Source: Chitinispirillaceae bacterium | GTDB taxonomy: Bacteria; Fibrobacterota; Chitinivibrionia; Chitinivibrionales; Chitinispirillaceae | Direction: 5' to 3' | DNA: 64,000 nucleotides | Assembly (NCBI GenBank): GCA_016929595.1 | Contig: JAFGIN010000068.1 | Location: forward strand, 62,001 to 126,000 | Shown here: piece after piece, positions 4,631 to 32,646 of the stretch | Layout of the letters: each line of letters starts with the position of its first letter | Numbering within the stretch: position 1 is the stretch's first letter | Notes under the pieces: model-generated | Database searches by the model: none | What the model saw: only the letters and a program-made list of their open reading frames with translations | Told to the model about the DNA's origin: nothing | Translations under genes and position numbers: made by a program

Positions 4631-5971
4631 ATGGTACAAACGGGATCTTATGATGTCAAACAGTTTTCCACTACCTCAGAGGGTGAGATTCGCCGTCTGG
4701 ATGCACAACTTGATCTTTTCTGGAAAAAAGAATACTCATTATATACCAGAGTCGGACTGACCGATGGTATGAACATTCTTGATGCCGGATGCGGTCCTGG
4801 ATATCTTGCTGAAAAAATGCTGACCATACTTCCATCAGTCTCAGTAACTGCTGTGGAAATTGATCCTGTACTGATTGATGTCGCACAAAAACGGCTTAAT
4901 GCATACTGTACTAACGGACGTTGCAGTATACTTCAAAATTCAATCCTGCAAATTGACTTACCAGACAACTTTTTTGATTTTATAATTTCCAGACTCGTTA
5001 TCGAACACGTACCTGATCTCGATGCTGCCTGTAGAGAATTGTTACGGGTTCTAAAACCGGGAGGTACACTTGTTCTCATCGATAATGATTTTGAGATGCA
5101 TGTAAGAACAACTCCCCCAATTCAGGAGCTCTCAGATCTTTATGATGCATACTGTCGCGCAAGATTCGATGAGGGTGGAAACCCCAGAATCGGTCGTGAG
5201 CTTCCCTTACTTCTAAAACGAACTGGTTTTACCGATATCGACCTCGAGATTATCTGTGCCCATAATTCAGTAATCGGTGACATTCCCTTCCTGAAATCAG
5301 AAGGCCCCGGAATACCAGTGCAACTAATTAACAAGGGGTACCTCTCTGAAGATACTTATAAAAAATTGACGGTTAAATGGCATGACATGCTGAAAAAAAA
5401 TGAACATGCCATTGTCAGGCAACTTTACGTTGCAATATCGAAGAAAAGTGCTGAGTATATCGATTCATCAACAACTACAGCAGATCTGTCAGGGGAATCA
5501 ACAGAGCCGTTTACATCCTGTGTTCCGGGGTCGGGCGATACATCACGAGATATATTTACTTCAGGTGCAGGTCTCGAAAAAATTATCAGCCTGGTAACAC
5601 AACATGTTTCACGATTGCTGAACTCAGATCCCGCAATACCAATAAATGATACAGTCGCACTGTCTGATCTTGGAATCGATTCCGAAATGGCAACAGAGCT
5701 TCAGCAATCACTCTCTTGTTCACTGAAGCTGAAAAAAGCACTCCCTGCGACACTGGTTTTTGACTATCCCACCATTCGCAGTATTGCACGATTCATTGAT
5801 GAACAGATCAACCCGAAAAGAAGTCTGCCATTCATTGCTCCCCACTACGAACCATCAAAACCTCTACAAGCGGATCCCGAAGGAAAAAGTCCTGGTATAC
5901 CAGATGATGAAATTGAAAGAAGATTGAGAGAAAAACTTGATTTTCTCGATAAGGATACACAAAATGCCTAA
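4631..5971 (+). CDS. SAM methyltransferase - acyl carrier protein fusion, line 1
   Basis: 446 residues. Residues ~30-200 are a class I SAM methyltransferase: ILDAGCGPG (residues 49-57) binds SAM, and RLVIEHVPDLDAACRELLRV and LKPGGTLVLIDNDF follow in the usual order. Residues ~312-395 are a carrier domain with LGIDS, where Ser351 would take phosphopantetheine. The last ~40 residues end in a charged helix (DDEIERRLREKLDFL) that looks like a C-terminal docking segment. The PKS gene starts 8 bases before this stop codon (ATG at 5964), so translation is coupled, and the PKS has a matching N-terminal coil. No loading AT or adenylation domain is present, so what is placed on this carrier is unclear. 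A paralogue with the same architecture opens line 2 (18876). It probably methylates its own carrier-bound starter. Domain calls are firm, substrate unknown. Confidence 0.9.
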   Translation: MVQTGSYDVKQFSTTSEGEIRRLDAQLDLFWKKEYSLYTRVGLTDGMNILDAGCGPGYLAEKMLTILPSVSVTAVEIDPVLIDVAQKRLNAYCTNGRCSILQNSILQIDLPDNFFDFIISRLVIEHVPDLDAACRELLRVLKPGGTLVLIDNDFEMHVRTTPPIQELSDLYDAYCRARFDEGGNPRIGRELPLLLKRTGFTDIDLEIICAHNSVIGDIPFLKSEGPGIPVQLINKGYLSEDTYKKLTVKWHDMLKKNEHAIVRQLYVAISKKSAEYIDSSTTTADLSGESTEPFTSCVPGSGDTSRDIFTSGAGLEKIISLVTQHVSRLLNSDPAIPINDTVALSDLGIDSEMATELQQSLSCSLKLKKALPATLVFDYPTIRSIARFIDEQINPKRSLPFIAPHYEPSKPLQADPEGKSPGIPDDEIERRLREKLDFLDKDTQNA

Positions 5972-8900
5972 CGATACTCCTGATACTACAGATACAACAC
6001 TCCTCAGAAGAGCTTTCTCAAAAATAGAAGAACTCGAGCAACTTCTCAAAGATAAATCCTGGAATGAACCAATTGCCGTAGTTGGAATCGGGTGTAAATT
6101 TCCTGGTTCCGTAAATGATCCCGAATCGTTCTGGAAGCTGCTCATCAATGGTACTGATGCGATTTGCCCTGTTCCTGTCGATCGGTTGAAAATAAAGGAT
6201 TTTCAACGCTCCCTGAAAGATCCTGACACCTCCGGCATCTATGTCGATTGCGGAGGTTTTCTTAGTGAAGACGTTTCCGGTTTCGACGCGCAATTTTTCG
6301 GAATAAGTGAACGTGAGGCAAAAGCACTTGATCCACAGCAACGGTTACTGCTTGAAACTGCCTGGGAGGCACTTGAGCATGCCGGACAGAACCCCGATGA
6401 ACTGGCAGGGACCGAAACTGGTGTATTCCTGGGACTTGCATCTAACGATTATGAAAAGCTTATTGGCAATCAACGAAACATTTCAGAATTTAATGTTTAT
6501 TACCTGACCGGAAATGCATTCAGTACCGCATCAGGTCGACTTTCCTATTTTCTGGGACTTAACGGCCCAGGTTTAACTATTGATACAGCCTGTTCGTCAT
6601 CACTCACTGCAGTACACTATGCCTGCCAGAGCATATGGCAGAAGGAATGCACCACAGCTCTTGCCGGGGGTGTCAACCTCGTCCTCTCCTTTGAAGACCT
6701 CCTTTCCTACTGCAGCGCATCAATGATTTCGCCCTCCGGACGATGCAAATCATTCGACAGTTCTGCCGACGGATTTATATTAAGTGAGGGATGCGGCATA
6801 GTTGTACTTAAACGGCTTTCAGACGCGCTTGAACATAATGATAGAATCTATTCGGTGATCCGTAGCTCATCAGTTAATCAGGATGGCGCAAGCAACGGAC
6901 TCACTGCTCCAAATTCACTGGCTCAGGCAATACTTATCAGACAAGCTTTAAAAAAAGCTCATCTGCAGGCTTCAGATATTCATTACATCGAAGCCCACGG
7001 TTCCGGAACCCCACTGGGTGATCCAATCGAAGTACAGGCACTCGCGTCGGTTTTTGGCAAGCGGGAAGCTGCTAATCCGTTACATATAGGTTGTGTTAAA
7101 TCCAATATCGGACATTGCGCTGCAGCTGCGGGTATTGCTGGCCTCATAAAAACAATTCTTTCTGTTTACCACGGAAAAATTCCGCAAAATCTTCATTTTT
7201 CAAACCCCAATCCATTGGTACCATGGGACGAAATCACAGCCAGAATACCTTCAGATAATCTGGAATGGTTATCTGAAAACGGCATCCGAAGAGCTGGAGT
7301 GAGTTCCTTTGGATTGAGTGGAACGAATGCACATGTCATACTTGAATCGGCTCCTTCCAACGAAGTATCAGGCTCATCCAGAGAATGGCAGATGCTCCCA
7401 TTGTCAGCAAAAACAAAAACCGCATTAAATATAATGGCAGAAAACCTTGCATCATGGATAGGCCGGAATCCTGCCACACCTCTTGCAGATATCGCCTTTA
7501 CACTCCAAACCGGCCGTAAACATGCTCCGTTCCGAAGTTGTATTGTTTGTAAAAATTCCTCTGATTTCCGGAATACTCTCAATCAGATCAGCCAGACAAG
7601 TGTTAATCTGCAGCCATTTTCAGGACAGCCGTCAAAAATAATTTTCGTATTTCCCGGCCAGGGAACGCAATATCCCGACATGGGTTCTTCCCTTTATAAA
7701 ACAGAACCTGTTTTCAGAGATGTATTTGACAGGTGTGCAGACGCCTTTAAAAAGTATATCGATGAAGATTTGCGTTCAATTATTTTTGGAAACATAACAG
7801 AATGTAACAAAAACAAACTAAAAAACACTCTCTATGCTCAACCTGCTATTTTTTCGATGGAGTATTCACTTGCATGCTTATGGCTGAGCTGGGGTGTCAG
7901 ACCAGCAGCACTGGTTGGCCACAGTATCGGTGAATTCGCTGCAGCACGCCTTTCGGGTATTCTGAGTTTCGATGATGCAGTATTTCTTGTTGCAAGAAGA
8001 AGTCATCTTCTCAATACACTTTCCCCCGGGACAATGATCTCAGTCCGATCTTCTGAAGAGGCTGTTTTTCCGATGATGTCACCGGAGCTCTCTATTGCAG
8101 CAATCAACAGCCCGAAGCTCTGTGTCATTTCCGGACCATCAGAAGCAGTAAATGCATTTCAGTTACGATGTGATACGGTCAACATCCCGCACCAGCCGCT
8201 TCACACTTCACACGCATTCCACTCTGCGATGGTCGAACCTGTTCTGCATCTATTCCAGGAAGAGGTAAGCGCCATCAGTTTTTTGAAGCCCGGCATTCCA
8301 ATAATATCAACTGTTACAGGTACATCACTCAGTGATTATGATGCGAGAGATCCATTGTACTGGACTCGGCACATGCGGCTTACCGTGCGGTTTTCCGAAG
8401 CAGTCAGGAGTGTCATGTATCAATTCCCCGAGGGTATCTTTCTTGAAGTCGGTCCACGGTCTACCTGTACATCTCTCATCCAACAACATTTTAACGGGCA
8501 GATACATAACACTGCAGTTTCTTCCATGAGCAGCAATGGAGAACCGGATGCCGACCTTCAGCAGCTGATGACAGCAACGGGTCACCTCTGGATACATGGA
8601 GTACCTCTTGATAGTAACTCTTTTTACAAAAACGAAAAACGAATTCGTATACCATTACCTTCATATCCATTCGAACGGAAAAGTTACTGGTTTAACAAGA
8701 CAGGCAGTCAACATCAGGTATACTACAACCAATACCGGGATGAACCGGTTTCAGTCCCTGTAACACCATGTGAAAAGCATACCACTGATGATGTTCTATG
8801 TACAAAAAGTAAGACGGCAGAAAAGATCCGCGACCTTGCAGCCACAGCCCTTGGATGTTCAGCAGAAAGCATCGGTGATACAATATCATTCCTTCACCTT

Positions 8901-9050
8901 GGCATGGATTCTCTGCTACTGCGTCAGTTTTCAAAGCAATTGAATAATACTTTTGGTACTGAGATATCTTTCCGCCACTTAATGCGCGAGTATTCCACCA
9001 TACAATCTCTTGCAGCATTCATCGATTCTGAAGAGAAGAGGATGTATTAA
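5964..9050 (+). CDS. type I polyketide synthase, KS-AT-ACP
   Basis: 1028 residues from the ATG at 5964, which overlaps the previous stop; an earlier in-frame start at 5937 would enter the upstream carrier gene. Residues ~12-33 are a coiled N-terminal docking helix (LLRRAFSKIEELEQLLKDK). The KS runs from ~36 to ~460 with the nucleophile in DTACSSSL (Cys210) and the two His in EAHGSGTPLG (His345) and NIGHCAAAAG (His384). The AT at ~558-860 has FPGQGTQYPDMG and GHSIGEF (Ser654). HAFHS at 750-754 is the malonyl-type specificity motif. The ACP near the C-terminus has LGMDSLL (Ser983). There is no room for KR, DH or ER, so the module should leave a beta-keto group. It would extend the chain handed over by the methyltransferase-ACP with one malonyl unit and pass it to the NRPS 52 bases downstream. 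Confidence 0.93.
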   Translation: MPNDTPDTTDTTLLRRAFSKIEELEQLLKDKSWNEPIAVVGIGCKFPGSVNDPESFWKLLINGTDAICPVPVDRLKIKDFQRSLKDPDTSGIYVDCGGFLSEDVSGFDAQFFGISEREAKALDPQQRLLLETAWEALEHAGQNPDELAGTETGVFLGLASNDYEKLIGNQRNISEFNVYYLTGNAFSTASGRLSYFLGLNGPGLTIDTACSSSLTAVHYACQSIWQKECTTALAGGVNLVLSFEDLLSYCSASMISPSGRCKSFDSSADGFILSEGCGIVVLKRLSDALEHNDRIYSVIRSSSVNQDGASNGLTAPNSLAQAILIRQALKKAHLQASDIHYIEAHGSGTPLGDPIEVQALASVFGKREAANPLHIGCVKSNIGHCAAAAGIAGLIKTILSVYHGKIPQNLHFSNPNPLVPWDEITARIPSDNLEWLSENGIRRAGVSSFGLSGTNAHVILESAPSNEVSGSSREWQMLPLSAKTKTALNIMAENLASWIGRNPATPLADIAFTLQTGRKHAPFRSCIVCKNSSDFRNTLNQISQTSVNLQPFSGQPSKIIFVFPGQGTQYPDMGSSLYKTEPVFRDVFDRCADAFKKYIDEDLRSIIFGNITECNKNKLKNTLYAQPAIFSMEYSLACLWLSWGVRPAALVGHSIGEFAAARLSGILSFDDAVFLVARRSHLLNTLSPGTMISVRSSEEAVFPMMSPELSIAAINSPKLCVISGPSEAVNAFQLRCDTVNIPHQPLHTSHAFHSAMVEPVLHLFQEEVSAISFLKPGIPIISTVTGTSLSDYDARDPLYWTRHMRLTVRFSEAVRSVMYQFPEGIFLEVGPRSTCTSLIQQHFNGQIHNTAVSSMSSNGEPDADLQQLMTATGHLWIHGVPLDSNSFYKNEKRIRIPLPSYPFERKSYWFNKTGSQHQVYYNQYRDEPVSVPVTPCEKHTTDDVLCTKSKTAEKIRDLAATALGCSAESIGDTISFLHLGMDSLLLRQFSKQLNNTFGTEISFRHLMREYSTIQSLAAFIDSEEKRMY

Positions 9051-9102
9051 TAGTCGATAATCAGTCATTAAATTTCATTGAAATAGGTGTTGGGAAAAAT
9101 TT

Positions 9103-12100
9103 ATGGATGAGATACCTGTAACTGGACTATTGCAGGAGATCTGGATATCTTCAATGCAGAGCACTGAAGCTTCCTGCGCTTATAATGAATCGTTCACTAT
9201 ACAATTGCATGGAAATTCTGATCATAGACGGCTTGAAAAAGCTGTACTTCAGGTAGTCGCCCGGCATGATGCCCTTTCTGCTGCGTTCAGTAATGATGGT
9301 ACTATCATGCGGAAAAAAATCGCAACACCCGGTGCTCTCCCCATACATGATTTGCGCAAATCGAATACGATTAACAACGACCACTTTTTAAAAGATCTTG
9401 TCTATCAAGAATCTTCGACACCTTTTGATCTGGAAGCTGGCCCGCTCTGGCGTGCACACCTGATTATTCAGTCCGATGAATCCATGGCTCTTCTCTTTAC
9501 CGTTCATCACATTGTGTGTGACGGATGGTCGCTCAATATTCTGGTCCACGAAATCGGGAAAGCATACGATAATGTATTTACCGGGCAAAGCACAACATTT
9601 GAGAGACCCGCCTCATTTTTTGATTATGTTAAAGATTCTGCAGAAGCCCGTTACGGAGATCAGCTGAAGATCAGTACTGAATTCTGGAAAAAACGACTTG
9701 AAGGACCATTACCGGTACTTGACCTTCCAACGGATTATACCCGACCACCCCGAAGGACTTATAGAGCAAAATGTAAAAGATTCCTGTTAGATCCGTTGAT
9801 TGTCCACCAGATTAAAAACAAAGCTGCAGACTACGGATGTAACCTTTTTTCATTTCTTCTGGGAGCTTATACAGTCTTAATTTATAAACTAACAGGAAAC
9901 GATAATATTGTAACAGGTATTCCTGTTGCAGGCCAGTGTTTTTACAAAAATTCCAATCTGGTCGGACATTGTGTATCCATGCTCCCATTCCGCACAATTA
10001 TCGATCCGGATAAGACATTTGGCAGATTTGCGGAAATGATTCAGGATGAATTGATTGACGCTTACGATCATCATTTTTTATCATATGGAGATATTCTCAA
10101 GGAGCTCCGGCTGCCCCGCGATCCATCCAGAATTCCACTCGTTAACACAGGATTCACTTATGCAAAAATGCCTTCCAGTGGGGAATTCGGCTTTCAGGAT
10201 CTTACTGCTGAATGTATTGTCAACAACCGTCTCTTCGAGATATTTGAATTGTATGTTACAGTTATTGATAGTAAAAGCGAATTGGAATTACTGTGGCACT
10301 TCAATAGTGATCTTTTTTCTGAAACTGCTGTAGAGCGATGGATTGAAGAGTATCAGGTCCTTCTAAGAGGAATTGCCGATAACACTCAGGCAACCTTATC
10401 AGCACTGCAGGTCTTACCTGATACAGAGCGCTCCGTTCTCCTTGAAAGGTGGAACGCAACCGACCGGCAGCTCAATCCGGATAAAACTGTAATCAGCATG
10501 TTTGAACAACAGGTAACATTGACACCGGAAGCAATTGCACTGGAATTTCGTGGCCACTCATTGACATACAAGCAGTTGAACGACAAAGCAGATCAAATTA
10601 CTGCTTATCTTCAGTCTATTGGTGCCAGCCCGGATCAACCAATAGGATTTTGTCTTGAAAGATCCTTTGATATGGTAATCAGTCTTCTTGGCATACTGAA
10701 ATCAGGTGCTGCATATATCCCGATCGACCCATCCTTTCCCGATGACCGCATTACATACATTCTGCAGGATTCTCAAGCACAGATATTTATTACAACGCCA
10801 GAAATCGCAAAACGGTTTCCTGATTTGATAATCCCGATAATTAATCCCGCTGAAGTCCCTGTAATTCAGGATAATAAAACGATACACACTGTATCAGGGT
10901 CTCATTGTGCGTATATTATCTATACATCCGGATCCACCGGAAAGCCAAAAGGGGTTGAAATCCGGCATTTCTCTCTTTCCAATTTTTTGACAGCAATGAG
11001 AGAAACTCCCGGAATGAACAGGAATGATACGCTGCTTGCAGTGACAACCATTTCATTCGATATCGCCGGACTCGAATTGCTTTGTCCATTAACTTGTGGA
11101 GCCAGGGTCATTCTGGCTGAAAAAGAGCTTTCATCTGATCCTGTACATCTGGGGGCTTTTATAAGCAGCAGAAAGCCATCCATCATGCAGGCAACACCGG
11201 CAACATGGACAATGCTTCTCGACTCCGGATGGATCGAAGCCGGATGGATGAAGATTCTCTGTGGAGGTGAGGCCATGACCCGTACGCTTGCAGATCGCCT
11301 GTTGTCGACAGGTGCAGAGGTATGGAATATGTATGGACCAACAGAAACAACGATCTGGTCGTCTGTCTGGAAAGTTATACCGGGCGAAGATGCGCCTCCT
11401 GTCGGCAAACCGATCGCGAATACACAGTTTTACATACTTGATTCCCGTTTATCGCCTGTCCCGACAGGGGCTTCAGGTGAACTGTACATCAGTGGTATCG
11501 GCCTTGCACGTGGCTATTGCAATCGTCCCGAATTAACCAGTGAAAAATTTATAAGCAGCCCCTTTTCCCGACATCTGCATTCCGGTCTTGAAAACAGGAT
11601 GTACAAGACCGGCGATATTGCACGTTGGCGTAATGATGGAACTGCCGAAGTATTGGGGCGCAGTGATTTTCAGGTGAAAATCAGAGGATATCGCATAGAG
11701 ACAGGGGAAATCGAATCTGTTCTGGCACATCATCCATCAGTTAAAGAATGTGTCGTAACCGACGGTAATGATAATAATAAAAATAAAATACTGATCGCGT
11801 ATATTGTTTTTCATAAAGGGGCAGAAACAACTTTTGATAATCTACGTACGACATTACGGATCAGCCTACCTGAATATATGGTTCCATCCCGATTTGTGCA
11901 GCTGCAATCACTTCCTCGTTTGACAAATAAAAAATTTGACCGATCATCTCTTTCTCTTCCATCCGGAGAACAGGCCGTCAACCAGAGCGAAATAGTTCTC
12001 CCTTCAAGCCATACAGAAGAAATAATATTATCTATCTGGAAAGAGGTGCTTGGTTCCGGAACAATCAGTGTCAATGATAACTTTTTTGATATCGGCGGTC

Positions 12101-15100
12101 ATTCGCTGATTGCTGTGCAGATATTTTCAAGAGTGCGTAACGTTTTCGGTATGGAATTTTCGTTTCAAGATATCTTTTCATATCCTACCATTTCCAGTCT
12201 TGCATCCAGAATAGAAACAAAAACGCGAACAGAAGTTACAGATAAAATCACAACATCTGAATTGACTCGTGTTGACCGCAGTGGGTATTTACCCATGTCA
12301 CAAGCACAAAAGAGGCTCTGGTTTCTGCATCAGATAAACCCTGATAGTCCGGCCTACAACCTTGTACAAGCCATCAGGATTAAAGGAAATGTTGATATCG
12401 TATTATTACAAAGAGCTGTCGACAATCTGGTTATCAGGCAGGAATCCCTGCAAATGGTGTTCAGAAGCAATGATGGTCAACCTGTTATTTCACTTAACCC
12501 GGAAACGAAAATCCGCATTATAAATGTTACCGGTGAAATAACTGGTTATTCAATGGACGTTGAGTCAATAAATGATTATATAAAAATCGAAGTTCTTAAA
12601 CCTTTTGATATCGAACACGGTCCATTGACTAAAGTATTTCTTTTCTCGATATCTCCTTCAGAATTTATCAGTGTATTTCTTATTCATCATATCATTACCG
12701 ATGGATGGTCATCAGGAGTTTTAATTAAAGATCTGTTTCGGTTGTATTCGAATGAGCTGCCTGGAAACTCAACAGTTCTTTCCGATTTACATTTTCAATA
12801 CATTGATTTTATTATCTATCAACACCAGGAACATGACCGGAAGAAATCAGATGCGCAAAGGGAATACTGGTTGAAAACACTTGGTGGTGATCTTCCTGTA
12901 TTGCAAATGCCATTTGATTTCAGAAGACCTGAAAAGCTTTCGCAAAAGGGTTCTGAATTAAGGTTTGTAATACCCAAAAACATCACAGCTGAGCTATCAT
13001 ATTTAAGCCAGAAGAATGGTGTTACGATGTTCATGACACTTTTATCTGGTTTTGCAGTACTTCTGAACAGATATACACAACAGGAGGATATTATCATCGG
13101 GGTACCTGTTGCTAACCGACAACATGTAGCATCCGAGGACATTATTGGTTTTTTTGTAAATACCCTTGCATTGCGGTTGAATGTTGATATTTCTACCAGT
13201 TTCGAAAATTTGTTACGACATGTTCATCAGGTTACCATAAATGCAATTCGCAACCAGGATGTTCAGTTCGATGAACTTGTCAGGATTCTTAAAATACACA
13301 GGGATTCGAGATACAACCCTGTCTTCCAGACTATGTTTGCCTATCAGAATTATCCAGTGCCAGAAGTCAAAAATGAGTACATTTCCTTTAAATCTGAATG
13401 GATTGCACGTGGCGCAACTCAATTTGATTTTTCTTTCTTCCTGTGGGAAGATTGTGATGAAATACATGGAGTCATTGAATACAGTATCGAATTATTTACT
13501 CATGTTACCATTTCGCAAATGGCCTCGCAGTACATTACTCTGCTTTCCACTATCTGCAATGATTCAAAAGCACCTTCAGGCAGTTACAAAATAATATCTC
13601 CGGAAGATGAATGCAGGATCATCTCCAGCTGGAATGCGACGGAAAAACCCTATACCCAAACAATGTGCATCCATGAACAAATCAGTAAACAAGCACAGAA
13701 AATGCCCTATGCCACTGCAGTTGTGGCAAATGGTCAATCACTTACATACAAAGATCTTGACGAGCAATCCAACATACTTGCGCGGTTATTGCAAAATCGC
13801 GGAGTAAAAGCAGAAGTCCCGGTTGGAATCTGTCTTGAACGGACAACCGGAATGGTCGTTGCATTACTGGCAGTTCTTAAAGCGGGCGGTTTTTATGTTC
13901 CACTTGATCCTTATTACCCATCAGAACGCCTAAAACTAATGATTGAAGATGCATCCATTGACACTGTACTTTCTGATACGTCTACTTCTAAAGTTTTACC
14001 CGAAGGAATTTCAAATGTAATAATAATTGATACTATAGATATAAAAGATTTAGATAACTGCCCTGTACCTACCTTAAGCACTCCAGATAATGCAGCATAT
14101 ATGATTTACACTTCAGGCTCCACTGGTAAGCCAAAAGGTGTTGTCATTGCACACAAATCTCTCGTTAATTTCGCCAGAAGCATGGTTAAAAATCCCGGAA
14201 TCGATTCTCATGATATTATTCTGGCAATAACCACTATTTCTTTTGACATTTCAATACTGGAGCTTTTAGTTCCTCTTACTACTGGAGCTCAGGTTGTTGT
14301 TGTCTCAAGGGATATCGCAATGGACGGTACAGCATTGTCGCACTGTATTCAAAACTCTGCCATTACTTTTATGCAGGCAACACCAGGCACCTGGCGTCTT
14401 CTTTTATCCTGTGGATGGTCTGGTAAATCTGACTTGACATTACTGTGCGGTGGTGAACCTTTTCCTGAGGACCTTCTATTTGAACTTATTACAAAAGTTA
14501 AAAGTGTCTGGAATATGTATGGCCCAACAGAAACGACTATCTGGTCCACGCTCTGCAAGTTACACGATACCGATACAGTTATCAGCATTGGCAAACCAAT
14601 TGACAACACTCAAATATATATTCTCGATAAATTTCTGAATCCCTTACCACCTAAAGTACCCGGTGAACTCTTCATTGGTGGACATGGTGTTGCCAGAGGA
14701 TATTTTAACAGACCAGATTTAACTGATCAGAAGTTCATTGCCGATCCTTTTTCAGCTATAGAAAACGCGAAAATGTTTGCTACCGGTGACCTTGCACGAT
14801 GGCTTGACAATGAAACTATTGAATGTTTTGGCAGAATCGATTCACAGGTTAAAATCCGGGGTCACCGGATTGAACTTGGTGAAATCGAGTCAACTACAAA
14901 AAAAATCCCTGGCATTTTCAACGCTGTCGCAACGGTTTTAAACCTTTCGGATACCGATAGCAGGCTACTTCTGTACTATGTAGCTGAAAAAAATAATTCT
15001 GTATCTGCTTCAGATATTCGAAAATATCTTCAGCAGTATTTACCAGAATATATGGTTCCGCAGCATCTTCTGAAGATTGATTCCATACCACTTACACCAA

Positions 15101-18072: not shown

Positions 18073-18459
18073 TGATTCCCCGGGAATACGCAGGATTTTT
18101 GTGGCGCATTTTTATTACAATAGTTAAAGAGCCTACAGCCTATTTTTCGTAATAAACCTGCAAACCATACTGTATTGGATAGTGCAGGATAGCTCCAGGA
18201 CATTTGAATAGTAAAATAAAATACATGCTACTCAATTTTTTCCACCAATAAGACGGAGTCAAGTCGTGTACTATGATCAGGTAAGTTTTGAATGGGTAAT
18301 ATTCAATTGCCGATGTATAATGATTCCTCAGGGAATGAGTAGATTCCGGAAATTGCAATACATTACTTTACAGTAGGTTTCAAAATTACGTAATCATCTG
18401 AAGCACACCATGTTGGCAGATATTATTTTATGATTGTTCCGTTTTAATATAGATTTTAT

Positions 18460-18790
18460 AAAAATTGCTACTACTCAGATGACTAATCAGCGATTCCGTT
18501 CACTTGCCAATCAATGGTCATTGTTTGGGCAGTGACAGAAAAGCCTCACTTGTTTCTCCCGCCATTTGCCGGATCACGAGGGGGCTTCATAACTATTGAG
18601 TCAGGTGCTCTGAGAAATTTAAAAATGTTACTATTCAGGTACCAAAAACCGCGTTTCCGCTCATCCTGATCCCGAGCTCGGGATCGAAGGGTGAGCGGAG
18701 TGCGAAAATCGCTCATGTTTCTCACGCCTCTTGCGGGATCAACACGATTTGCCTTGTAAATATTGTGTCGGAAGGACCTGAGTAGTAACA
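18460..18790. repeat. intergenic repeat cluster between the two assembly lines
   Basis: The 803-base spacer at 18073-18875 has no credible gene but holds a cluster of repeats. TGTTACTATTCAGGTACC at 18626-18643 is repeated in inverted form at 18774-18790 (GGACCTGAGTAGTAACA), with two differences, giving a ~165-base element with inverted ends. A third, degenerate copy (TTGCTACTACTCAGAT) lies at 18465-18480. Imperfect direct repeats begin TGTTTCTC at 18551-18579 and 18716-18747 and share a GGATCA(AC)ACGA-like end. GATCCCGAGCTCGGGATC at 18668-18685 is a perfect 18-base palindrome. The layout is that of a small non-autonomous or dispersed intergenic repeat family. I cannot tell from one window whether it is mobile. 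Confidence 0.6.
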
Positions 18791-18818
18791 AATAAATTAG
18801 CTATATCTATTGATTTTT

Positions 18819-18831: not shown

Positions 18832-18875
18832 ATTTGGATAACCTGGTTCATCAACTTTAATAAGAGGGCAGAGAG

Positions 18876-23812: not shown

Positions 23813-23833
23813 GATTACAGAGGGCCTTTGATA

Positions 23834-26800
23834 ATGAATACTATGACCGATGATCAGATTTCCCAGAGTGTTGCAATAATTGGTATGTCCGGAAGATTCC
23901 CGGGAGCAGAGTCAATTTCAGAATTCTGGCAAAATCTCCTTGATGAAACCTGTTCACTGGAAATGTTACGTGATGATGCACTGAGAGCATCAGGTGTTCC
24001 TGATGAGATTATCTGCAGTCCCCGATGTATCAAACGTGCCGGAGTGCTTCACAACAGCGACATGTTCGATGCACCATTTTTCACGTACAGCCGCCGCGAG
24101 GCTGAACTTATTGATCCTCAGCAGCGCCTCTTCCTTGAATGCGCATGGGAAGCATTTGAAGACGCCGGCTACACACCAGAATCGGCCAGGGGATCGGTTG
24201 GTGTCTTTGGTGGCGCCGGCATGAATTACTATTTCATCAAAAATATTCTCTCCCGACATAAAAGGTTTGAAGAGATCGTTGATTTTCTCACCTTTATCGG
24301 AAGCGAGAAGGATTACCTGTGTAGCAGGGTTTCCTATAAGTTAGGACTTACAGGACCCAGCTTCTCCATAAATTCAGCCTGCTCCACATCTCTCGTAGCG
24401 ATCCAGGTAGGCTACCAGTCGTTGCTTACCGGCCAATGCGATTACGCTCTGTGCGGAGGTGTATCACTGCAATCCCCCCGTGACCGGGCATCACTTTACA
24501 ATGAAGGAGAAATTTTCTCTCCTCAGGGAATCTGCAGAACATTTGACAAAAAGGCAGATGGCATTGTTTTTGGCGAAGGTGTCGGTATTGTGATGCTGAA
24601 ACGTACTGAAGATGCTCTACGGGACAGAGATCATATCTATGCGGTCATCAGAAGCGCAGTTGTCAATAATGACGGATCTGCAAAAAGCGGTTACACGGCA
24701 CCCGGTTTCGAGAGTCAATCAGACCTGATCGCACTGGCACAGGAAGTTGCCGGAGTGCTCCCCGATGAGATCGCATTCATTGAGGCACATGGTACCGCAA
24801 CAAGGCTGGGTGATGCCATCGAAGTGGGGGCTTTGACAAAAGCGTTCAGAAGACACTCCAACCGTAAGCGATTCTGCGCTTTGGGATCGGTCAAAACCAA
24901 TATTGGACACCTCGACACGGCAGCAGGCGTTACCGGACTTATCAAAACCGCACTCGCACTCAAAAACCGGGTACTTCCTGCATCGATTAACTTCATAGAA
25001 GAAAACCCTGAACTTGAACTTGAAAACAGTCCCTTCTATGTTGCAAAAGAAAAGGTTCTCTGGGAAAACTATGATGTACCCCTTATCGCTGGCCTCAGCT
25101 CTTTCGGTATGGGAGGTACCAATGCACATGCAATTTTGCAGGAACCCCCGGCACGTCAGCTGTCGATTAAATCCAGAAGGTTTTACCTTATACCATTTTC
25201 AGCACATTCGGAAAACGCACTCAGCCGGACACGGGAACGTCTACAACACTATTTAATGCAGAACGATAACCTTCCGATACAGGATGTGGCATTTACACTT
25301 CAGACAGGAAGATATGCCTTCGAGGCCCGCAACTTTGCCGTCTGCTCCGCAACCGCAGAACTCATTTCCATACTTGGGAACACTGCGACAGCAGCCCAAA
25401 AAAGCCCCGCAACCCTGTCATCGCAACCGGTCATATTTGCATTTTCGGGACAGGGTGCCCAGTACCCTGGTATGGGGCGTCAGCTATACAACTCAGAAAA
25501 GATAGTGCGTGACCTGCTCGACCAGGCACGTACGATAATGCAATCCGAAACAGGAGAGGATCTGTTCAGTTTCCTTTTCCCGTCAGATACGGAATCAGTT
25601 ACTGCCGCGCAAACACTTTCCAGTACAGTTTATACACAACCGGCACTTTTTGCACTTGAATACGCAATAGCCCGACTGTTCATCTCCTTTGGAATCAAAC
25701 CTGCAGCCTGTATTGGTCACAGCATTGGTGAATATACCGCAGCTGCAATCGCAGGTGTATTTACCTTCGAGCAGGGAATGAGAATCGTACTCCAGCGTGG
25801 TAAAATCATGGACGCGATGCAGAGAGGTTCAATGGCATTTGTCACACTGACCGAAAAAGAGCTGCAGTCCCATATCAGTGGTAACCTCGTCATCGCATTA
25901 GTTAATGCACCATCATCGTGTGTCGTCGCCGGTCCCACAGATGAAGTTTCCTCATTTATTGAAACAATGAAGAGAAACAGCGTCAGATGCGGCCTTCTGC
26001 AGACATCCCATGCGTTTCATTCTCCAATGATGGATGAAGCTGCGGGGCAGTTTAAAGAGTATCTCGATAGTGTTACCCTGTCAAAACCGACTATGCCATT
26101 CATATCCAATGTAACTGGTACCTGGATTACCAGTGATCAATGTACCAGCAGCAGATATTGGGCAGATCATCTGCGTAAAACAATTCGATTCTCCGATGGG
26201 ATAGCTGAATTACTGAACAAAAATTACCGCCTGTTTCTTGAGATCGGTCCGGGCAGTACCCTTTCCACACTTATAAGTATGCACACGTCAGAAACCGACA
26301 AGGTTAACACCGTGCAGTCGCTCCATCACAGTAAGCAGAAGGCTGATGATGAAGCATTTTTTACCAGTGCGATTGGTGAACTCTGGAGTGCCAGGGTCAC
26401 TATTGACTGGTCAGGGTTCTATCCCCTTGATCTCCCTAATAAGGTGCCGTTACCAACCTACCCGTTCGAACGTCAACGGTATTGGATTGAATACTGCAAT
26501 CCCGGACACGTAACAGCCTCTGAAACGGTTACTTCAGATAATGCGGTTGATCCGCAATCCACAGATCATGCACAAATAGAAACAGTGCAGATGGCAGATC
26601 TTACATCACGCGAATCACTTTTTAGCTTAGTTACTGATGCCTGGCGTGAAGTTCTGCGAATCGATCAGTGCGGCCCGGATGAAAGCTTTGTGGTTCTGGG
26701 TGGAAATTCTCTGATGCTCTCACAGGTTGTTTCACGTATCAATCAGCGATTGCCCTATATTCTTCATATGTCATTTCTGATGGGTAGTTACACCATTAAC

Positions 26801-29800
26801 GAACAGGTTGAGCGCCTGCTTGAATTCGGCAGATCAAATCCCGGAACAACCACTCAAACTGTTAACGAACCGGTACCACATGCCGAAAAGGAAACGCTCT
26901 CACCGGCCCAGCAGCGCCTCTGGTATCTCTGTCAACTTAACCAGCATACTCCGGCATTCAATCTGACACATACATTCCGCCTGCGTGGTCGGCTCGACGT
27001 TATGCGTCTTGAAGAGGCTGTGAGGACTGTTGCACAGCGGCACCCCTCACTGCGTTCTACATTCTCTCATATCAACGGTGTTCCTGTTGTGCGGGTGATC
27101 GAAAACATTCCCCTCTCTCTTTCAATCACCGAATGCATCGGTTCATCGGGAGATGAGAGCGAAAAGGCCGCTGCTGATCATATCCGTAAAGAGGCAGCAA
27201 TCCTCTACGATCTCGAGCGGGGCCCACTCTTCAAATGTGGACTGTACCACGTCGCTGCAGAAGAGTATATCTTTGTGTTCTATATTCACCATATCATCTC
27301 CGATGGATGGTCGATGGCAATCATACTCAAAGAGCTTTCCGCACTCTATAATACCCCTCAGGGACAGCATGATTCCGTTCTTGAAAAAATAAAAATCAAC
27401 TATTTCGATTATGCGGCGTACATGAACCACCTTGAAGAAGGCCCGATTCATCAGGAAGACACTGCGTTCTGGAAAGAGTATTTCAAGGATGGTTTACCGA
27501 TATTATCGCTTCCAACCGACTTTCCGCGTCCAAAAACGCTGAAATTTACAGCAAAACTACTGACCTTTACACTTCCTCCGGAACTGATGCGCAAGATAAC
27601 TGCCTATGCTGGAGCTAAGAAAGTTACTCCATTTTCCATTCTCCTGGCTATGTATGGTCTTCTTCTTCACCGTAACGCCCGGCAGGAGAGGATCATTATC
27701 GGTTGTCCTATCGCAGGGAGAAACCGTGTCGAATTCGAACCGCTTATCGGTCTGTTTCTCAATATGATTCCATTCAACCTTGAGTTTAAATCTGATATGT
27801 CCGTTGAAGAGCTCACGCTTGCAACCTACCGGAACACTGTGGATGTCTTTGCACACCAGAATCTTCAGTTTGGAAAACTTGTTGAACTTCTTCAACCGGA
27901 GCGTCACCTCAACATCAATCACGTATTTCAAACCATGTTCGCGTATAATAACTACCTCTTCAGTGATAACACCCCCGGAGAGGTCATCTTTGAACCGGAA
28001 AAATCCGACCGGGGATCATCCGAATATGACCTATCTCTTTACATGTGGTCATCAGATGATACTCTGCATGGCGCATTTGAATATAATGATGAACTTTTTC
28101 TTCCATCAACAGTTAAAGGACTACGCTCACAGTTTCAGACACTACTGGAAGCAGCCCTCGAAGATCCGTTACTCCCGATTGTTAAAGCTCCTGTATATTC
28201 AATCCATCAGATTACAACGCTGCTTGAACAAAAATTTTCATCTGCCTGTGCCACACCCGAACAGGAAACGGTACATGCACTGCTCGATCGATCGTTTCTT
28301 GAAAACAAACAGGCGGTCGCAATTACAGATGGTAGCAACTCCTTTCGATATGATGATCTTTACGAACGTTCCAATCAGGTGTGTAATGGTCTCAGGCAGG
28401 CTGGAGTGGAACATGGAACACTTGTTGGTATCCACATGTCACGTTCAATAAACCTGCTGCCGGTAATGGTGGGGATTCTCAAAGCAGGTGCAGCCTACAT
28501 TCCGCTCGATCCGCTCTTCCCTGCTGAACGTATCGATTACATGATTGAAAATGCAGCTTTACAGTTCCTTATTACCGAAATCCCGAATGGTAAACGTTTT
28601 ACAGGTAATCAGACAGTCCGCGTTTTTACCTGTGATGATCAGCGCAACGATTTCAGTAGCCAGAGTACTACACTAGACCAACATTATGGAGATGGTGAAA
28701 GCCTTGCGTACATTCTTTATACCTCCGGATCGACCGGTGCCCCCAAAGGGGTCGAAATCCAGCATAAATCATTGGTCAATTTCCTTCATTCAATGAAAAA
28801 GTCTCCCGGCATACAACGGGATGACCGGCTTCTTGCTGTTACCACCATCTCATTTGACATTTCAGGGCTCGAACTGCTGCTTCCGCTGACAGCCGGAGCA
28901 TCCATAACCCTTGTTGACAGCATGGTTGCAGCTGATGGATTCGAACTTAAAAAGCGAATTGAATCTTCAGGTACGACAATAATGCAGGCAACCCCTGCCA
29001 CCTGGCGAATGCTTCTTGAGGCCGGCTGGCAGAACGGTACCGGCTTTAAAATACTTTGCGGTGGTGAAGCAATGTCGCGGGATCTTGCCGACAGACTGCT
29101 TGCAACCGGTGCTGAAGTGTGGAACATGTATGGACCGACTGAGACTACAATCTGGTCATCGATCAGCAGGGTTATCCCCGGAGAAACGGAACCGAATATC
29201 GGAGTACCAATTGATAACACACAGTTCTTTTTCCTGGATGATGCCCTTCAGGAGGTACCCCGGGGAATTATCGCAGAACTCTGTATTGCAGGAACCGGGC
29301 TTGCCAGAGGATACCATAAAAACACAGATCTTACAGAAAAGAAATTTGTTACTATCAGTATTGGTGGAAAAATCATTCGTGTTTACCGAACCGGTGATCT
29401 GGTTCGTACAAAGGCTGATGGAACCATTGAATTTCTGGGACGCACTGATCAGCAGGTAAAAATTCGCGGATACCGTATTGAACTTGAAGAGATCGAAAGC
29501 GTGTTAAACAGACATGTATCGGTACAACAGGCAGTTGTCTCCACCTACACAACTGCGGGTGGAAAGGAACTGGTTGCTTATATCAGGCTTAACGATGGGT
29601 CAGCACTTAATACATCATCTCTCCGCGAACACCTGGGAGTATACCTCCCCCACTACATGATACCAGCTGCAGTTGTTGAGATCAATACATTTCCTTTGAC
29701 TCCTAACGGTAAGGTTGATAGAAAAAAATTACCGGCGCCACAGTCTGATTCAATAATCAGCACCGCTTCGGCATCCGGTCAGAAAGCCCAGGATAAATTC

Positions 29801-30340
29801 GAGGAAGAGCTGATAAGGATCTGGGAAAAGTTCATCGGTAAAAAAGTCAACACAATCGATGACAACTATTTCGAACTCGGCGGACATTCGCTTCTTGCGG
29901 TTCAGATATTCAATGAACTTCATAAAGAGTTTGACATCCGCCTTCCTCTGGCTGTACTCATAGAACACCCCACGATACGCACCTTTTCCGCATACCTTCG
30001 CAATATACTCAATATTCCCGAATTTGCCGGAGAACCTGAAAGCGACAATTCAGAAGATAGTGCAATCAAAACACCAGTAAAAGGACTTAAAGCCGGTTAC
30101 AACAAGCAGGGACGGCCAATCTGGTTTGTAAAAGATCTGCACATTCTGGACAAATACGAACCACTTATTAAAGATACCGAGATTCCCGAAGACCCATTTA
30201 CCATTCAAAAGAAGAGTGTCACAACCACCCCGGCTCAGCAGGAGATCTTTAATGTATACAAGCTGATGCTAACGCAACCATTGCATATAATGAAGCGATT
30301 GCAATCCGGTTTACCGGTCCCATTGATGAAAGTGCGATGA
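23834..30340 (+). CDS. hybrid PKS/NRPS, KS-AT-ACP-C-A-PCP-C* (C* broken by frame change)
   Basis: 2168 codons from the ATG at 23834 (a TTG at 23828 is in frame but sits too near the AGAGGG ribosome site). The KS has INSACSTSL (Cys183), EAHGTATRLG and NIGHLDTAAG. The AT has SGQGAQYPGMG, GHSIGEY (Ser630) and the malonyl-type HAFHS. The ACP has LGGNSL (Ser959). No reductive domains. The C domain has IHHIISDGWS (His1152). The A domain has YTSGSTGAPKG and by eye the glycine-like pocket D-I-L-Q-L-G-M-I-W-K. The PCP has GGHSL (Ser2019). GLKAGYNKQGRPIWFV at 2084 is the same linker as in line 1. After TTPAQQEIFNVY (to base 30259) similarity to the line 1 C* stops in this frame and continues in the -1 frame, so the last ~27 residues here are out of register. 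The gene ends at a TGA that overlaps the ATG of the next gene (ATGA). Confidence 0.92.
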   Translation: MNTMTDDQISQSVAIIGMSGRFPGAESISEFWQNLLDETCSLEMLRDDALRASGVPDEIICSPRCIKRAGVLHNSDMFDAPFFTYSRREAELIDPQQRLFLECAWEAFEDAGYTPESARGSVGVFGGAGMNYYFIKNILSRHKRFEEIVDFLTFIGSEKDYLCSRVSYKLGLTGPSFSINSACSTSLVAIQVGYQSLLTGQCDYALCGGVSLQSPRDRASLYNEGEIFSPQGICRTFDKKADGIVFGEGVGIVMLKRTEDALRDRDHIYAVIRSAVVNNDGSAKSGYTAPGFESQSDLIALAQEVAGVLPDEIAFIEAHGTATRLGDAIEVGALTKAFRRHSNRKRFCALGSVKTNIGHLDTAAGVTGLIKTALALKNRVLPASINFIEENPELELENSPFYVAKEKVLWENYDVPLIAGLSSFGMGGTNAHAILQEPPARQLSIKSRRFYLIPFSAHSENALSRTRERLQHYLMQNDNLPIQDVAFTLQTGRYAFEARNFAVCSATAELISILGNTATAAQKSPATLSSQPVIFAFSGQGAQYPGMGRQLYNSEKIVRDLLDQARTIMQSETGEDLFSFLFPSDTESVTAAQTLSSTVYTQPALFALEYAIARLFISFGIKPAACIGHSIGEYTAAAIAGVFTFEQGMRIVLQRGKIMDAMQRGSMAFVTLTEKELQSHISGNLVIALVNAPSSCVVAGPTDEVSSFIETMKRNSVRCGLLQTSHAFHSPMMDEAAGQFKEYLDSVTLSKPTMPFISNVTGTWITSDQCTSSRYWADHLRKTIRFSDGIAELLNKNYRLFLEIGPGSTLSTLISMHTSETDKVNTVQSLHHSKQKADDEAFFTSAIGELWSARVTIDWSGFYPLDLPNKVPLPTYPFERQRYWIEYCNPGHVTASETVTSDNAVDPQSTDHAQIETVQMADLTSRESLFSLVTDAWREVLRIDQCGPDESFVVLGGNSLMLSQVVSRINQRLPYILHMSFLMGSYTINEQVERLLEFGRSNPGTTTQTVNEPVPHAEKETLSPAQQRLWYLCQLNQHTPAFNLTHTFRLRGRLDVMRLEEAVRTVAQRHPSLRSTFSHINGVPVVRVIENIPLSLSITECIGSSGDESEKAAADHIRKEAAILYDLERGPLFKCGLYHVAAEEYIFVFYIHHIISDGWSMAIILKELSALYNTPQGQHDSVLEKIKINYFDYAAYMNHLEEGPIHQEDTAFWKEYFKDGLPILSLPTDFPRPKTLKFTAKLLTFTLPPELMRKITAYAGAKKVTPFSILLAMYGLLLHRNARQERIIIGCPIAGRNRVEFEPLIGLFLNMIPFNLEFKSDMSVEELTLATYRNTVDVFAHQNLQFGKLVELLQPERHLNINHVFQTMFAYNNYLFSDNTPGEVIFEPEKSDRGSSEYDLSLYMWSSDDTLHGAFEYNDELFLPSTVKGLRSQFQTLLEAALEDPLLPIVKAPVYSIHQITTLLEQKFSSACATPEQETVHALLDRSFLENKQAVAITDGSNSFRYDDLYERSNQVCNGLRQAGVEHGTLVGIHMSRSINLLPVMVGILKAGAAYIPLDPLFPAERIDYMIENAALQFLITEIPNGKRFTGNQTVRVFTCDDQRNDFSSQSTTLDQHYGDGESLAYILYTSGSTGAPKGVEIQHKSLVNFLHSMKKSPGIQRDDRLLAVTTISFDISGLELLLPLTAGASITLVDSMVAADGFELKKRIESSGTTIMQATPATWRMLLEAGWQNGTGFKILCGGEAMSRDLADRLLATGAEVWNMYGPTETTIWSSISRVIPGETEPNIGVPIDNTQFFFLDDALQEVPRGIIAELCIAGTGLARGYHKNTDLTEKKFVTISIGGKIIRVYRTGDLVRTKADGTIEFLGRTDQQVKIRGYRIELEEIESVLNRHVSVQQAVVSTYTTAGGKELVAYIRLNDGSALNTSSLREHLGVYLPHYMIPAAVVEINTFPLTPNGKVDRKKLPAPQSDSIISTASASGQKAQDKFEEELIRIWEKFIGKKVNTIDDNYFELGGHSLLAVQIFNELHKEFDIRLPLAVLIEHPTIRTFSAYLRNILNIPEFAGEPESDNSEDSAIKTPVKGLKAGYNKQGRPIWFVKDLHILDKYEPLIKDTEIPEDPFTIQKKSVTTTPAQQEIFNVYKLMLTQPLHIMKRLQSGLPVPLMKVR
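30253..30340 (+). other. -1 frame break inside C* of line 2
   Basis: The upstream frame matches the line 1 C* up to the Tyr codon at 30257-30259. From base 30259 on, the -1 frame (CAA GCT GAT GCT AAC) gives QADANATIAYNEA, which aligns without a gap to CADEQATTTLNET of line 1. One missing base near 30259 explains this. I see no classical slippery heptamer. The two frames then overlap for about 80 bases until the TGA at 30338-30340. Confidence 0.8.
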
Positions 30341-32646
30341 GTGAAGCCATACAGACACTAACTGTAGCTCATGAAATCCTGCGCGCTCACTTCTCTCCCG
30401 ACGGTAAAGAGTTGATCATCGAATCCCATGTCGAGATCCCGGTTGAACGTCACAATCTCGGTTCACTCAGAGGAGATGCACTTGAAGCGAAGATAAAAAC
30501 ATTTGAAGATGAGATTATCAGGTACCCTTTTAATCTTGAAACCGGTCCGCTTGTCAGGGTAACCTGTATTGTATCTGGCAACAATGATTATACTATCCTG
30601 CTTGGCGTTCACAGCAGTACTGTCGACTTATGGTCACTCAACACGCTGAGCCGTGATCTTGTCAAACTGTATCTGAGCTTAGCCGCACAGGAACCACCAT
30701 GCGCGCTTCCGAAATATGGGTTTAGTGATTATATTGAATATCGTGCAATTCCGGAAACAAGCAATCAATTGCAAAAATCTATCATGTACTGGCACAGCAG
30801 ACTCGCACTACCGCCGCTGCCATACCCACCACGGCCGATTTTTCATGAAAAACCTCGTCCGGCCAACCGGTTGTATAAAGCACACACTGTCAAAAAACAG
30901 TGGAGCGGGAATGTAGTATCAATGATTAAATCGTTTGCAAGCCACAATGGTATTTCCGTTTTTTCCGTTCTCATGGCAGGCCTCGCAAAAAAGATCCAGT
31001 TTTATACAGGCTCAGACGATATTACTGCGGGTATTCCGTTTGCAGGCCAACTCAACTGCGGCATGGACGGCACAGCTGGAAGATTTGTCAACCTTATCCC
31101 TGCACGTTTTCAATTGTATTCTTCGAGCGACTTTACTGAATTATGTCGTCGTTCTCATGAATCCATGTCAAATGAGTATGACAATAGCTGTATTGACATT
31201 GAAGATCTGGCTGCAACTCTTGGTTTCAACCACACAAAAAAAGAAATTCTCACCGCAACCCGCTGTCTATATATCGATACTGTGCAAGATAGATTAAATA
31301 TTTCAGATACACCGTCTGCTACATTCAGTTTCATTACAAGATGTTCCACCACCGCAAATCTAGAAATCAACTTTCTCGAAGTAAGGGAAAGCCTTGAAGT
31401 AACCATCCTTGCTGATGCAGATTTTACCGATAAACAATGGCTCAATACATTCGCACAGGAACTTGAGGAGCTGTTTAAACAAAATTGTATAGTGGGTACA
31501 ACTACAACCATATCTCCGGATACTAGTCAAGAGCCAACAACATTCCAGGAAAAGATAATTTCAGATATATGGAAGCAGATCCTGAAAACTGAGAATATCC
31601 GCAGTAACGACAGCTTTTACGGATTAGGTGGAGATTCGATTCAAGCACTACAGATGTTATATGAAATCGAGCGTGCCTTTAAAGTGAAAATTCCTCTTTC
31701 AGTGTTTATAACGCTGGACACAATAAAAAAATTAACGAATCATGTAAACACATTAACAAGCACGCAAAAAACAATAACATTAAACAGTTCTGCTGTTTCA
31801 ACAGTTGCTGTTAAAAAGCAGGATTGGAACACAATCGTAACATTGAACCAGGAAGGCGATCTGCCTCCGTTTTTCTGTGTCTCGGGTCTTGGCGGTAACC
31901 CTATGATATTCCAGCACCTGTCAAGACTGCTTAGTAAAAACCAGCCGTTTTACGCACTGCAGTTCCGTGGGGTTGATGGCATTATGACACCCCACAAACG
32001 CGTTGAGGACATGGCCACAGAATTCATGAATGATATTCGTAAAGTACAGCCGGAAGGTCCCTACCATCTGGGCGGGTATTCATTCGGAGGGTTAGTAGCT
32101 TATGAAATAGTGCAAAGATTTATAGTAAATGGTGAATCTGTTGGGGGATTAGTGCTGATAGATACGTTTATTCCTCAATTCAGTAAAGTTGTCCTGAAGA
32201 AGAGCCTTCGAAATATAATATCAAAATTAATCCCTACCGGTTCTGGATACAAAATAAGAAGACTATCAGATCATTTAAGATCTCTTGGATTGCTGCCTAA
32301 AAAGAAGCTGAATCTCTCCAACACCTTTAAAAACAGATTCGATTTAGTCGCATCATGCAATCATCTTGCTGGAGTACAGTATAAGCCACAGCCAATGTCT
32401 GCGAATGTATTATTTATCAAAAGCGCACTTCCAGTCACTTCCGATCGTTATGGACACAATCTACCATTTCACAGAATCAATGAATGGAATGGCCTTATCC
32501 ATCCCGATCTCCTTGATTTGCGCCATACACAGGCACACCATTATGAAATTTTAAATGAGCCGCACCTGTATGAGACTGCAAAGAATATCAGGGAAGGGAT
32601 GGCAGCTTTGCGCGCGAAAGGACCTGTGGTTTCCAGCATGGCTTGA
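30337..32646 (+). CDS. NRPS C-terminal part: remainder of C*-PCP-TE
   Basis: 769 residues beginning inside a condensation-like domain. EAIQTLTVAHEILRAHF aligns with the line 1 C* (SAIQGLAIIHEILRSHF), and the reading frame remains similar back to about 30262, before this ATG. It is therefore the continuation of the preceding gene after a -1 frame break, not an independent start in origin. It could still be translated separately from the ATGA overlap. The degenerate active site reads VHSSTVDLWS (His92, Ser93 in place of the second His, Leu98 in place of Gly). The PCP has LGGDSIQ (Ser434). The type I thioesterase has GLGGNPMIF, GGYSFGG (Ser582), LIDTFIPQ and a late His in QAHHYEILNEP. It is paralogous throughout to the C*-PCP-TE end of line 1. 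It should release the line 2 product. Gene call sure; whether line 2 works depends on the frame break. Confidence 0.88.
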   Translation: MSEAIQTLTVAHEILRAHFSPDGKELIIESHVEIPVERHNLGSLRGDALEAKIKTFEDEIIRYPFNLETGPLVRVTCIVSGNNDYTILLGVHSSTVDLWSLNTLSRDLVKLYLSLAAQEPPCALPKYGFSDYIEYRAIPETSNQLQKSIMYWHSRLALPPLPYPPRPIFHEKPRPANRLYKAHTVKKQWSGNVVSMIKSFASHNGISVFSVLMAGLAKKIQFYTGSDDITAGIPFAGQLNCGMDGTAGRFVNLIPARFQLYSSSDFTELCRRSHESMSNEYDNSCIDIEDLAATLGFNHTKKEILTATRCLYIDTVQDRLNISDTPSATFSFITRCSTTANLEINFLEVRESLEVTILADADFTDKQWLNTFAQELEELFKQNCIVGTTTTISPDTSQEPTTFQEKIISDIWKQILKTENIRSNDSFYGLGGDSIQALQMLYEIERAFKVKIPLSVFITLDTIKKLTNHVNTLTSTQKTITLNSSAVSTVAVKKQDWNTIVTLNQEGDLPPFFCVSGLGGNPMIFQHLSRLLSKNQPFYALQFRGVDGIMTPHKRVEDMATEFMNDIRKVQPEGPYHLGGYSFGGLVAYEIVQRFIVNGESVGGLVLIDTFIPQFSKVVLKKSLRNIISKLIPTGSGYKIRRLSDHLRSLGLLPKKKLNLSNTFKNRFDLVASCNHLAGVQYKPQPMSANVLFIKSALPVTSDRYGHNLPFHRINEWNGLIHPDLLDLRHTQAHHYEILNEPHLYETAKNIREGMAALRAKGPVVSSMA

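Follow-up and report, generated by a model that had tools for sequence, protein, structure and literature searches.

Two tandem hybrid polyketide/peptide assembly lines, putative mosaics of exchanged cassettes with a degenerate condensation-like domain near their ends, in a Chitinispirillaceae bacterium

Replacement of an adenylation (A) domain by FkbH, ends made of condensation (C), peptidyl carrier protein (PCP) and thioesterase (TE) domains without an A domain, a degenerate terminal C domain and initiation through a methyl ester are each already known, singly, from polyketide synthase (PKS) or nonribosomal peptide synthetase (NRPS) systems. Aurantinin biosynthesis is initiated by Art28, a malonyl-acyl carrier protein (ACP) O-methyltransferase; a partner esterase is present in 11 of 12 clusters of this type, and the methyl-ester strategy has also been reported in PKS/NRPS hybrids (PMC8302727). 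FkbH stands in place of the A domain in NRPS modules of the vioprolide and cystomanamide pathways, and the glyceryl unit of vioprolide is attached as an ester (PMC8949500). Here we describe two hybrid assembly lines, lines 1 and 2, that lie side by side at positions 4631–32646 of a 64,000-nucleotide stretch (the window) of contig JAFGIN010000068.1 from the Chitinispirillaceae bacterium assembly GCA_016929595.1. Both begin with a methyltransferase (MT) fused to an ACP and end with PCP-C*-PCP-TE, where C* is a degenerate condensation-like domain. We read them as two separate short cis-acyltransferase (cis-AT) PKS/NRPS lines built by cassette exchange from a family-wide pool and acting by the route proposed below, a reading to which we give a probability of about 0.5.

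The source genome is a 6.6-Mb draft in 224 contigs (95% complete, 3.6% contamination), and its relatives were surveyed in 168 genomes from 41 genera of the phylum; G003 and G006 are relatives from two other genera of the same family. Domains and motifs were called by Pfam and NCBIfam searches plus a motif audit, and trees with approximately unbiased (AU) tests were built from domains of the source genome, several other genera and outgroups (support is given as bootstrap/Shimodaira–Hasegawa-like approximate likelihood ratio). With KS for ketosynthase and Gly for an A domain with a glycine code, line 1 reads MT-ACP / KS-AT-ACP / C-Gly-PCP-C-Gly-PCP-C*-PCP-TE and line 2 reads MT-ACP / C-FkbH-PCP / KS-AT-ACP-C-Gly-PCP-C*-PCP-TE. 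Within each line the genes are closely packed, overlapping or with gaps of no more than 53 bp; between the two lines the gap is 804 bp (Table 1). KS, AT, ACP, C, A, PCP and a terminating TE are all present, as in hybrid type I cis-AT PKS/NRPS systems, and catalytic motifs are intact everywhere except in C*: Cys-His-His in KS, including that of line 1 gene 2, GHSxG in AT, HHxxxD in C, the carrier Ser, and GxSxG in TE. Both ATs carry the malonyl-type signatures GHSIGE and HAFHS, and the domain searches found no ketoreductase (KR), dehydratase (DH) or enoylreductase (ER) domain in either line. All three A domains give the same motif-derived code, DILQLGMIWK, which is read as glycine. The FkbH of line 2 scores 271 bits with TIGR01686 (cut-off 147), contains the haloacid dehalogenase (HAD) motif VDCDNTLW and adjoins a PCP with GGTS, as in FkbH modules, and the TubC-type docking region between MT-ACP and C-FkbH-PCP stays below threshold (PF18563, 19.9 bits; cut-off 26). 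This architecture bears out an earlier note on this DNA, which had described the MT-ACP starts, the PCP-C*-PCP-TE ends and the differing middles, namely KS-AT-ACP and two Gly modules in line 1 against C-FkbH-PCP, KS-AT-ACP and one Gly module in line 2. The fourth gene that it counted for line 2 turns out to be the 3' part of the third: open reading frames (ORFs) 23828–30340 and 30337–32646 belong to a single gene, which a one-base frameshift within C* cuts in two. The homology of this C* to that of line 1 crosses the frames in register, with the N-terminal 45 positions of the domain encoded in the first frame and the rest in the other. The apparent start at 30337 hence does not mark a true gene boundary, and C*-PCP-TE of line 2 was rejected as a separate gene because of the frameshift.

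Table 1. Coordinates of the two assembly lines and neighbouring features in the window
Feature	Position	Strand	Basis
Line 1 gene 1: class I S-adenosylmethionine (SAM) MT fused to ACP (ACP ~5594–5797, Ser in GIDSE; SAM motif DAGCGPGYL)	4631–5971	+	PF08241 76 bits, PF00550 35 bits, motifs
Line 1 gene 2: KS-AT-ACP	5937–9050	+	KS ~6066–7199, AT ~7641–8504, ACP ~8820–9023
Line 1 gene 3: C-A(Gly)-PCP-C-A(Gly)-PCP-C*-PCP-TE	9103–18072	+	Pfam, motifs
Line 1 C*: HAAIID in place of HHxxxD	15664–16902	+	Alignment, tree
Element like a miniature inverted-repeat transposable element (MITE), 163 bp, terminal inverted repeats GTTACTATTCAGG / CCTGAGTAGTAAC	18627–18789	+	Terminal inverted repeats, genomic copies
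Line 2 gene 1: MT-ACP, paralogue of 4631–5971	18876–20087	+	Pfam, comparison with line 1
Line 2 gene 2: weak TubC-type docking region, C (~20270–21649, HHAVTDA), FkbH (~22223–23173, DCDNTLW), PCP	20084–23812	+	Profile matches (C: PF00668 225 bits)
Line 2 gene 3, 5' part: KS-AT-ACP-C-A(Gly)-PCP and start of C*	23828–30340	+	Pfam, motifs
Frameshift site, approximate (shift near 30250)	30230–30270	+	Homology to line 1 C* in register over two frames
Line 2 gene 3, 3' part: rest of C* (HSSTVD), PCP, TE	30337–32646	+	Pfam, comparison, motifs
Convergent beta-helix protein, 1579 aa	34630–39369	-	Neighbour shared with C*-PCP-TE end of G003
Surface-glycan locus	40554–63232	.	Glycosyltransferase (GT), acetyltransferase, polysaccharide pyruvyl transferase, F420-hydrogenase-beta-like, Wzy_C polymerase/ligase and WbsX genes

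The matching parts of the two lines are unequally related. The MT-ACP didomains are 40% identical overall and 50% in MT alone, and the C*-PCP-TE regions are 38.6% identical, whereas the KS-AT-ACP parts reach only 34.5% and are not sisters in the trees. The two C* domains (98/88), the C domains before the last Gly module (95/89) and the TEs (87/88) form pairs; the MTs are nearest to each other by path, and the tree does not settle the branching among those of line 1, line 2 and G006. By contrast, a clade of the two KSs (AU p 2.9e-6), a pair of the two ATs (2.5e-4) and a pair of the A domains adjoining C* (0.007) are all rejected. The KS of line 1 groups with those from two further clusters of the source genome (100/98), that of line 2 with KSs of G003, G006 and G008, and the AT of line 1 with G008, so even KS and AT have different histories. 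The earlier note had seen paralogues along the whole length of the lines and a duplication followed by module gain or loss, to be checked by domain trees. The former holds for MT-ACP and C*-PCP-TE but not for KS-AT-ACP; the latter finds closest partners in C*, the C before the last Gly module and TE, with the MTs by path, but not in KS, AT and A. Plain duplication of a whole line, under which every pair should consist of nearest relatives, therefore fails, and even when followed by module gain and loss it is now quite unlikely. Tandem duplication of line 1's own two Gly modules was likewise rejected as a pairing of their A domains (AU p 2.7e-5). Since the C*, C and TE pairs are supported and the KS, AT and A pairs are not, shared end cassettes and module exchange take the place of duplication, and the best reading of the trees is that both lines are mosaics from cassette exchange among lines of the same bacterial family. 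Two related putative products from one locus are plausible.

The locus, which the earlier note had proposed to look for in related genomes, recurs there in parts: the line 2 order up to Gly-PCP in G006, over two contigs, and the C*-PCP-TE end in G003. One G006 contig (C271) ends with MT-ACP and the start of a TubC-like C-FkbH, another (C162) starts with FkbH-PCP followed by KS-AT-ACP-C-A-PCP, and by alignment the two would abut with a gap of ~40 residues. Directly after this line come two alpha/beta hydrolases (L057:8528–10138), in place of a TE and with no C*-PCP-TE; as true exosortase-A hydrolases 2 and 1 they were rejected, scoring below cut-off (70 vs 203 and 57 vs 168 bits), and the likeness is distant. 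G006 shares the front of line 2 without C*-PCP-TE, which marks this front as an older unit and makes C*-PCP-TE look like an end that can be exchanged. Among the 168 genomes, MT-ACP was found at E <= 1e-25 in the source genome and G006 only; FkbH exceeds its cut-off in 22 of them and lies in a long C-fused ORF only in the source genome, the G006 ORF being split by the contig break. In a tblastn search of plasmids no record covered 80% of MT-ACP and one was returned for C*-PCP-TE, below 25% identity, and a contig search for C*-PCP-TE gave only generic C-PCP-TE regions (21–32% identity).

The C* domain sets these ends apart. In all three known copies the catalytic second His of HHxxxD is replaced, by Ala in line 1 (HAAIID), Ser in line 2 (HSSTVD) and Gly in G003 (HGSIID), so that none has the active site of an active LCL or DCL condensation domain; C*, so marked in the earlier note, is degenerate and not just atypical. 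The three form one clade (100/100) on a long stem (1.39), nested with C domains that follow PKS ACPs (the first C of line 1 and G008; 99/94), they are conserved over the three lines at 37–39% identity, and a GLxxGYxxxGRPxW linker is conserved upstream of C* in the three lineages. In G003, where the domain order of the protein is A(C-term)-PCP-KS-AT-C*-PCP-TE, AT and C* are not separated by a carrier, which leaves C* without a donor carrier of its own just upstream. Given that all three copies lack the second His, C* is, by its motifs, most likely not a condensation domain. The X domain of glycopeptide antibiotic NRPSs, which recruits P450s, is likewise a catalytically degenerate C near the release TE (PMC8949500), but X stands directly between the last PCP and TE, whereas C* is separated from TE by a PCP and occurs behind PKS as well as NRPS modules. 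An X-like platform that draws a tailoring enzyme to the carrier-bound chain would agree with a degenerate C before TE kept in three lines, yet given this difference in position, and with no P450 noticed among the listed neighbours of the lines, we consider such a role possible but rather unlikely. A-less C-PCP-TE ends are also found in the cyanobacteria Gloeothece verrucosa (L080) and Nostoc UHCC 0926 (L081), so the missing A domain is not new; their C domains keep HHxxxD (HHIISDGWS and HHILTDGWC, respectively), which the inactivated C* does not, and identity to the window cassette is 23–25%. Descent from an intact end of this kind, together with the long stem, would suit a C* that is a decaying remnant past which the chain skips to TE. 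Against this, three lineages retain the whole domain, its PCP and the linker, and G003 keeps C* where no condensation is possible, which makes the remnant somewhat less likely again than the platform.

At the other end of the lines, we propose a start by analogy with Art28, a class I MT that works on an ACP where a PKS line begins (PMC8302727); in contrast to the Art28 system, MT and ACP are fused, a cis-AT line follows and the MT is only distantly BioC-like and known from sequence. Several observations weigh against our reading of the lines. The two MTs score 54.3 and 40.6 bits with TIGR02072 (BioC), far from its cut-off of 185, and are thus not BioC, a result that concerns BioC itself and not kinship with Art28; models for UbiE and corrinoid-associated MTs give comparable scores, and therefore initiation by methyl-esterification of malonyl-ACP, as by Art28, is only our favoured guess. 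A fold search with a model of the MT (predicted local distance difference test, pLDDT, 66) matched generic class I methyltransferases only, and no Art9-like esterase was seen beside the window's lines; the line of G006 is followed by its two alpha/beta hydrolases. The comparable scores with UbiE-type C-methyltransferase models would also accord with an MT that methylates carbon rather than oxygen, on the starter or on the growing chain, as MT-GNAT-ACP loading modules do; with no GNAT decarboxylase domain present and no match to PKS C-methyltransferases among solved structures, this is the less probable start. The frameshift is due either to a sequencing or assembly error or to a recent mutation, and could make line 2 a pseudogene: the one-base shift falls within C*, and inspection by eye shows no canonical slippery heptamer there. 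We think this improbable, since ~770 downstream codons are still open with conserved C*, PCP and TE motifs, the remaining line 2 genes are all intact and an assembly error in a 224-contig draft is equally likely. Duplication with later replacement of the middle (KS, AT and A), or its overwriting by gene conversion, is possible, and the G006 line depends on C271 and C162 being adjacent. Finally, the role of C* rests on sequence only, and its structure model was poor (pLDDT 50) and was not used.

In the reading that we prefer, two separate lines put together by cassette exchange, the ACP of MT-ACP would be loaded with malonate in trans, one candidate being the AT that the KS-AT protein carries, and the fused MT would methyl-esterify the malonyl-ACP to give a protected starter, as Art28 does in aurantinin. 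KS-AT-ACP of line 1 would then add one malonate and leave the beta-keto group unreduced, there being no KR or DH, and the two Gly-code modules would add glycines. In line 2 FkbH would load its PCP from 1,3-bisphosphoglycerate, with dephosphorylation, and the C domain would hand the starter over to this glyceryl-PCP, the bond probably being an ester like that of vioprolide, after which KS-AT-ACP would add malonate and the single Gly module glycine. Here, as in vioprolide and cystomanamide (PMC8949500), a C-FkbH-PCP in which FkbH replaces A follows an acyl starter, although the line 2 starter would come from MT-ACP and not from a fatty acyl-AMP ligase (FAAL), and the glyceryl unit would then be extended by KS-AT-ACP. 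C* may serve as a structural or recruiting domain before the last PCP-TE, and TE would release the chain. The probable products are small molecules of the beta-ketoacyl-glycine type, formed next to the cell surface and perhaps serving it.

Surface-glycan genes lie beside such lines repeatedly, which speaks for a role at the cell surface more than for a diffusible antibiotic. On its line 2 side the pair adjoins the surface-glycan locus (~40.5–63 kb of the window), with the beta-helix protein in between; the closest match of the latter is the copy directly behind the G003 C*-PCP-TE (48–49% identity in the C-terminal half), beyond which G003 has WecG, F420-hydrogenase-beta-like, GT4 and pyruvyl transferase genes. 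As a unique marker the beta-helix neighbour was rejected: its family is multicopy in this order, and the shared glycan setting is therefore suggestive only. The line of G008 is flanked by genes for an aminotransferase, a FemAB-like protein and a chain-length/tyrosine-kinase-like protein (by eye, no Pfam match). G007 (contig C10, L062) has an exosortase gene ~5 kb away from one that encodes KS-AT-ACP-C-A-PCP-TE, and DUF362, GNAT and radical SAM genes lie nearby; the 64-kb window holds no exosortase. PEP-CTERM/exosortase loci have also been connected with N-acyl amino acid synthases (Craig 2011, cited in PMC7293339). The setting there is similar, acyl-amino-acid-type enzymes with surface-glycan/exosortase genes, but those are single acyltransferases and not thiotemplate lines. 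On plasmid pOJF2_1 of Aquisphaera giovannonii (L086), an FkbH-PCP-TE protein (11950–14961) is encoded in an exosortase/exopolysaccharide locus and apparently provides a thiotemplate glyceryl unit dedicated to glycan; together with this published link, it points the same way as the glycan-adjacent lines.

Further features of the window and genome can be listed briefly. The very large beta-helix proteins at 34630–39369 and at L059:5747–10471 are conserved in their C-terminal half and hardly alike in their N-terminal halves, and the glycan locus starts with a radical SAM/SPASM protein (40554–41633). The 804-bp gap between the lines contains the MITE-like element, which includes the palindrome GATCCCGAGCTCGGGATC and is present genome-wide in ~25 copies, whole or partial; another element, diverged from it, apparently lies at ~18467–18620. 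The source genome is rich in PKS/NRPS lines for its phylum, with further PKS/NRPS genes on contigs C15, C116 and C199, and contig C182 (L034, L067) encodes an NRPS of 8715 aa that contains eight C domains and has a KS-AT protein ahead of it. Genomes of the largest genus of the phylum hold 96–122 copies each of the Fibrobacter succinogenes major paralogous domain, which points to Fibrobacterota as the most likely phylum.

Literature searches returned no paper devoted to PKS/NRPS lines of Fibrobacterota, and nothing specific on exosortase with PKS/NRPS or on PCP-C-PCP-TE. No characterised cluster sharing this gene order turned up in the searches made, which did not extend to MIBiG or antiSMASH. 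Three features appear to be new: the MT-ACP fusion, as far as the searched genomes and plasmids go; a C*-PCP-TE cassette that has lost C activity and is common to PKS and NRPS contexts; and the tandem mosaic arrangement of lines that carry both. A bolder proposal, which we regard as doubtful, is that C*-PCP-TE is an exchangeable termination cassette whose inactivated C has acquired a new function (hand-over, gating or recruitment) behind KS-AT or PCP, and that together with a fused starter that methyl-esterifies malonyl-ACP it builds small acyl-glycines for the surface-glycan loci of Fibrobacterota. If the C* cassette is real and transferable, it would extend the PKS/NRPS repertoire by a further kind of termination module, and the KS-AT-C*-PCP-TE of G003 would be a natural example of a condensation domain whose task has to be something else. 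The mosaic ancestry of the two adjacent lines is a clear instance of modules exchanged in nature, with breakpoints that can be identified.

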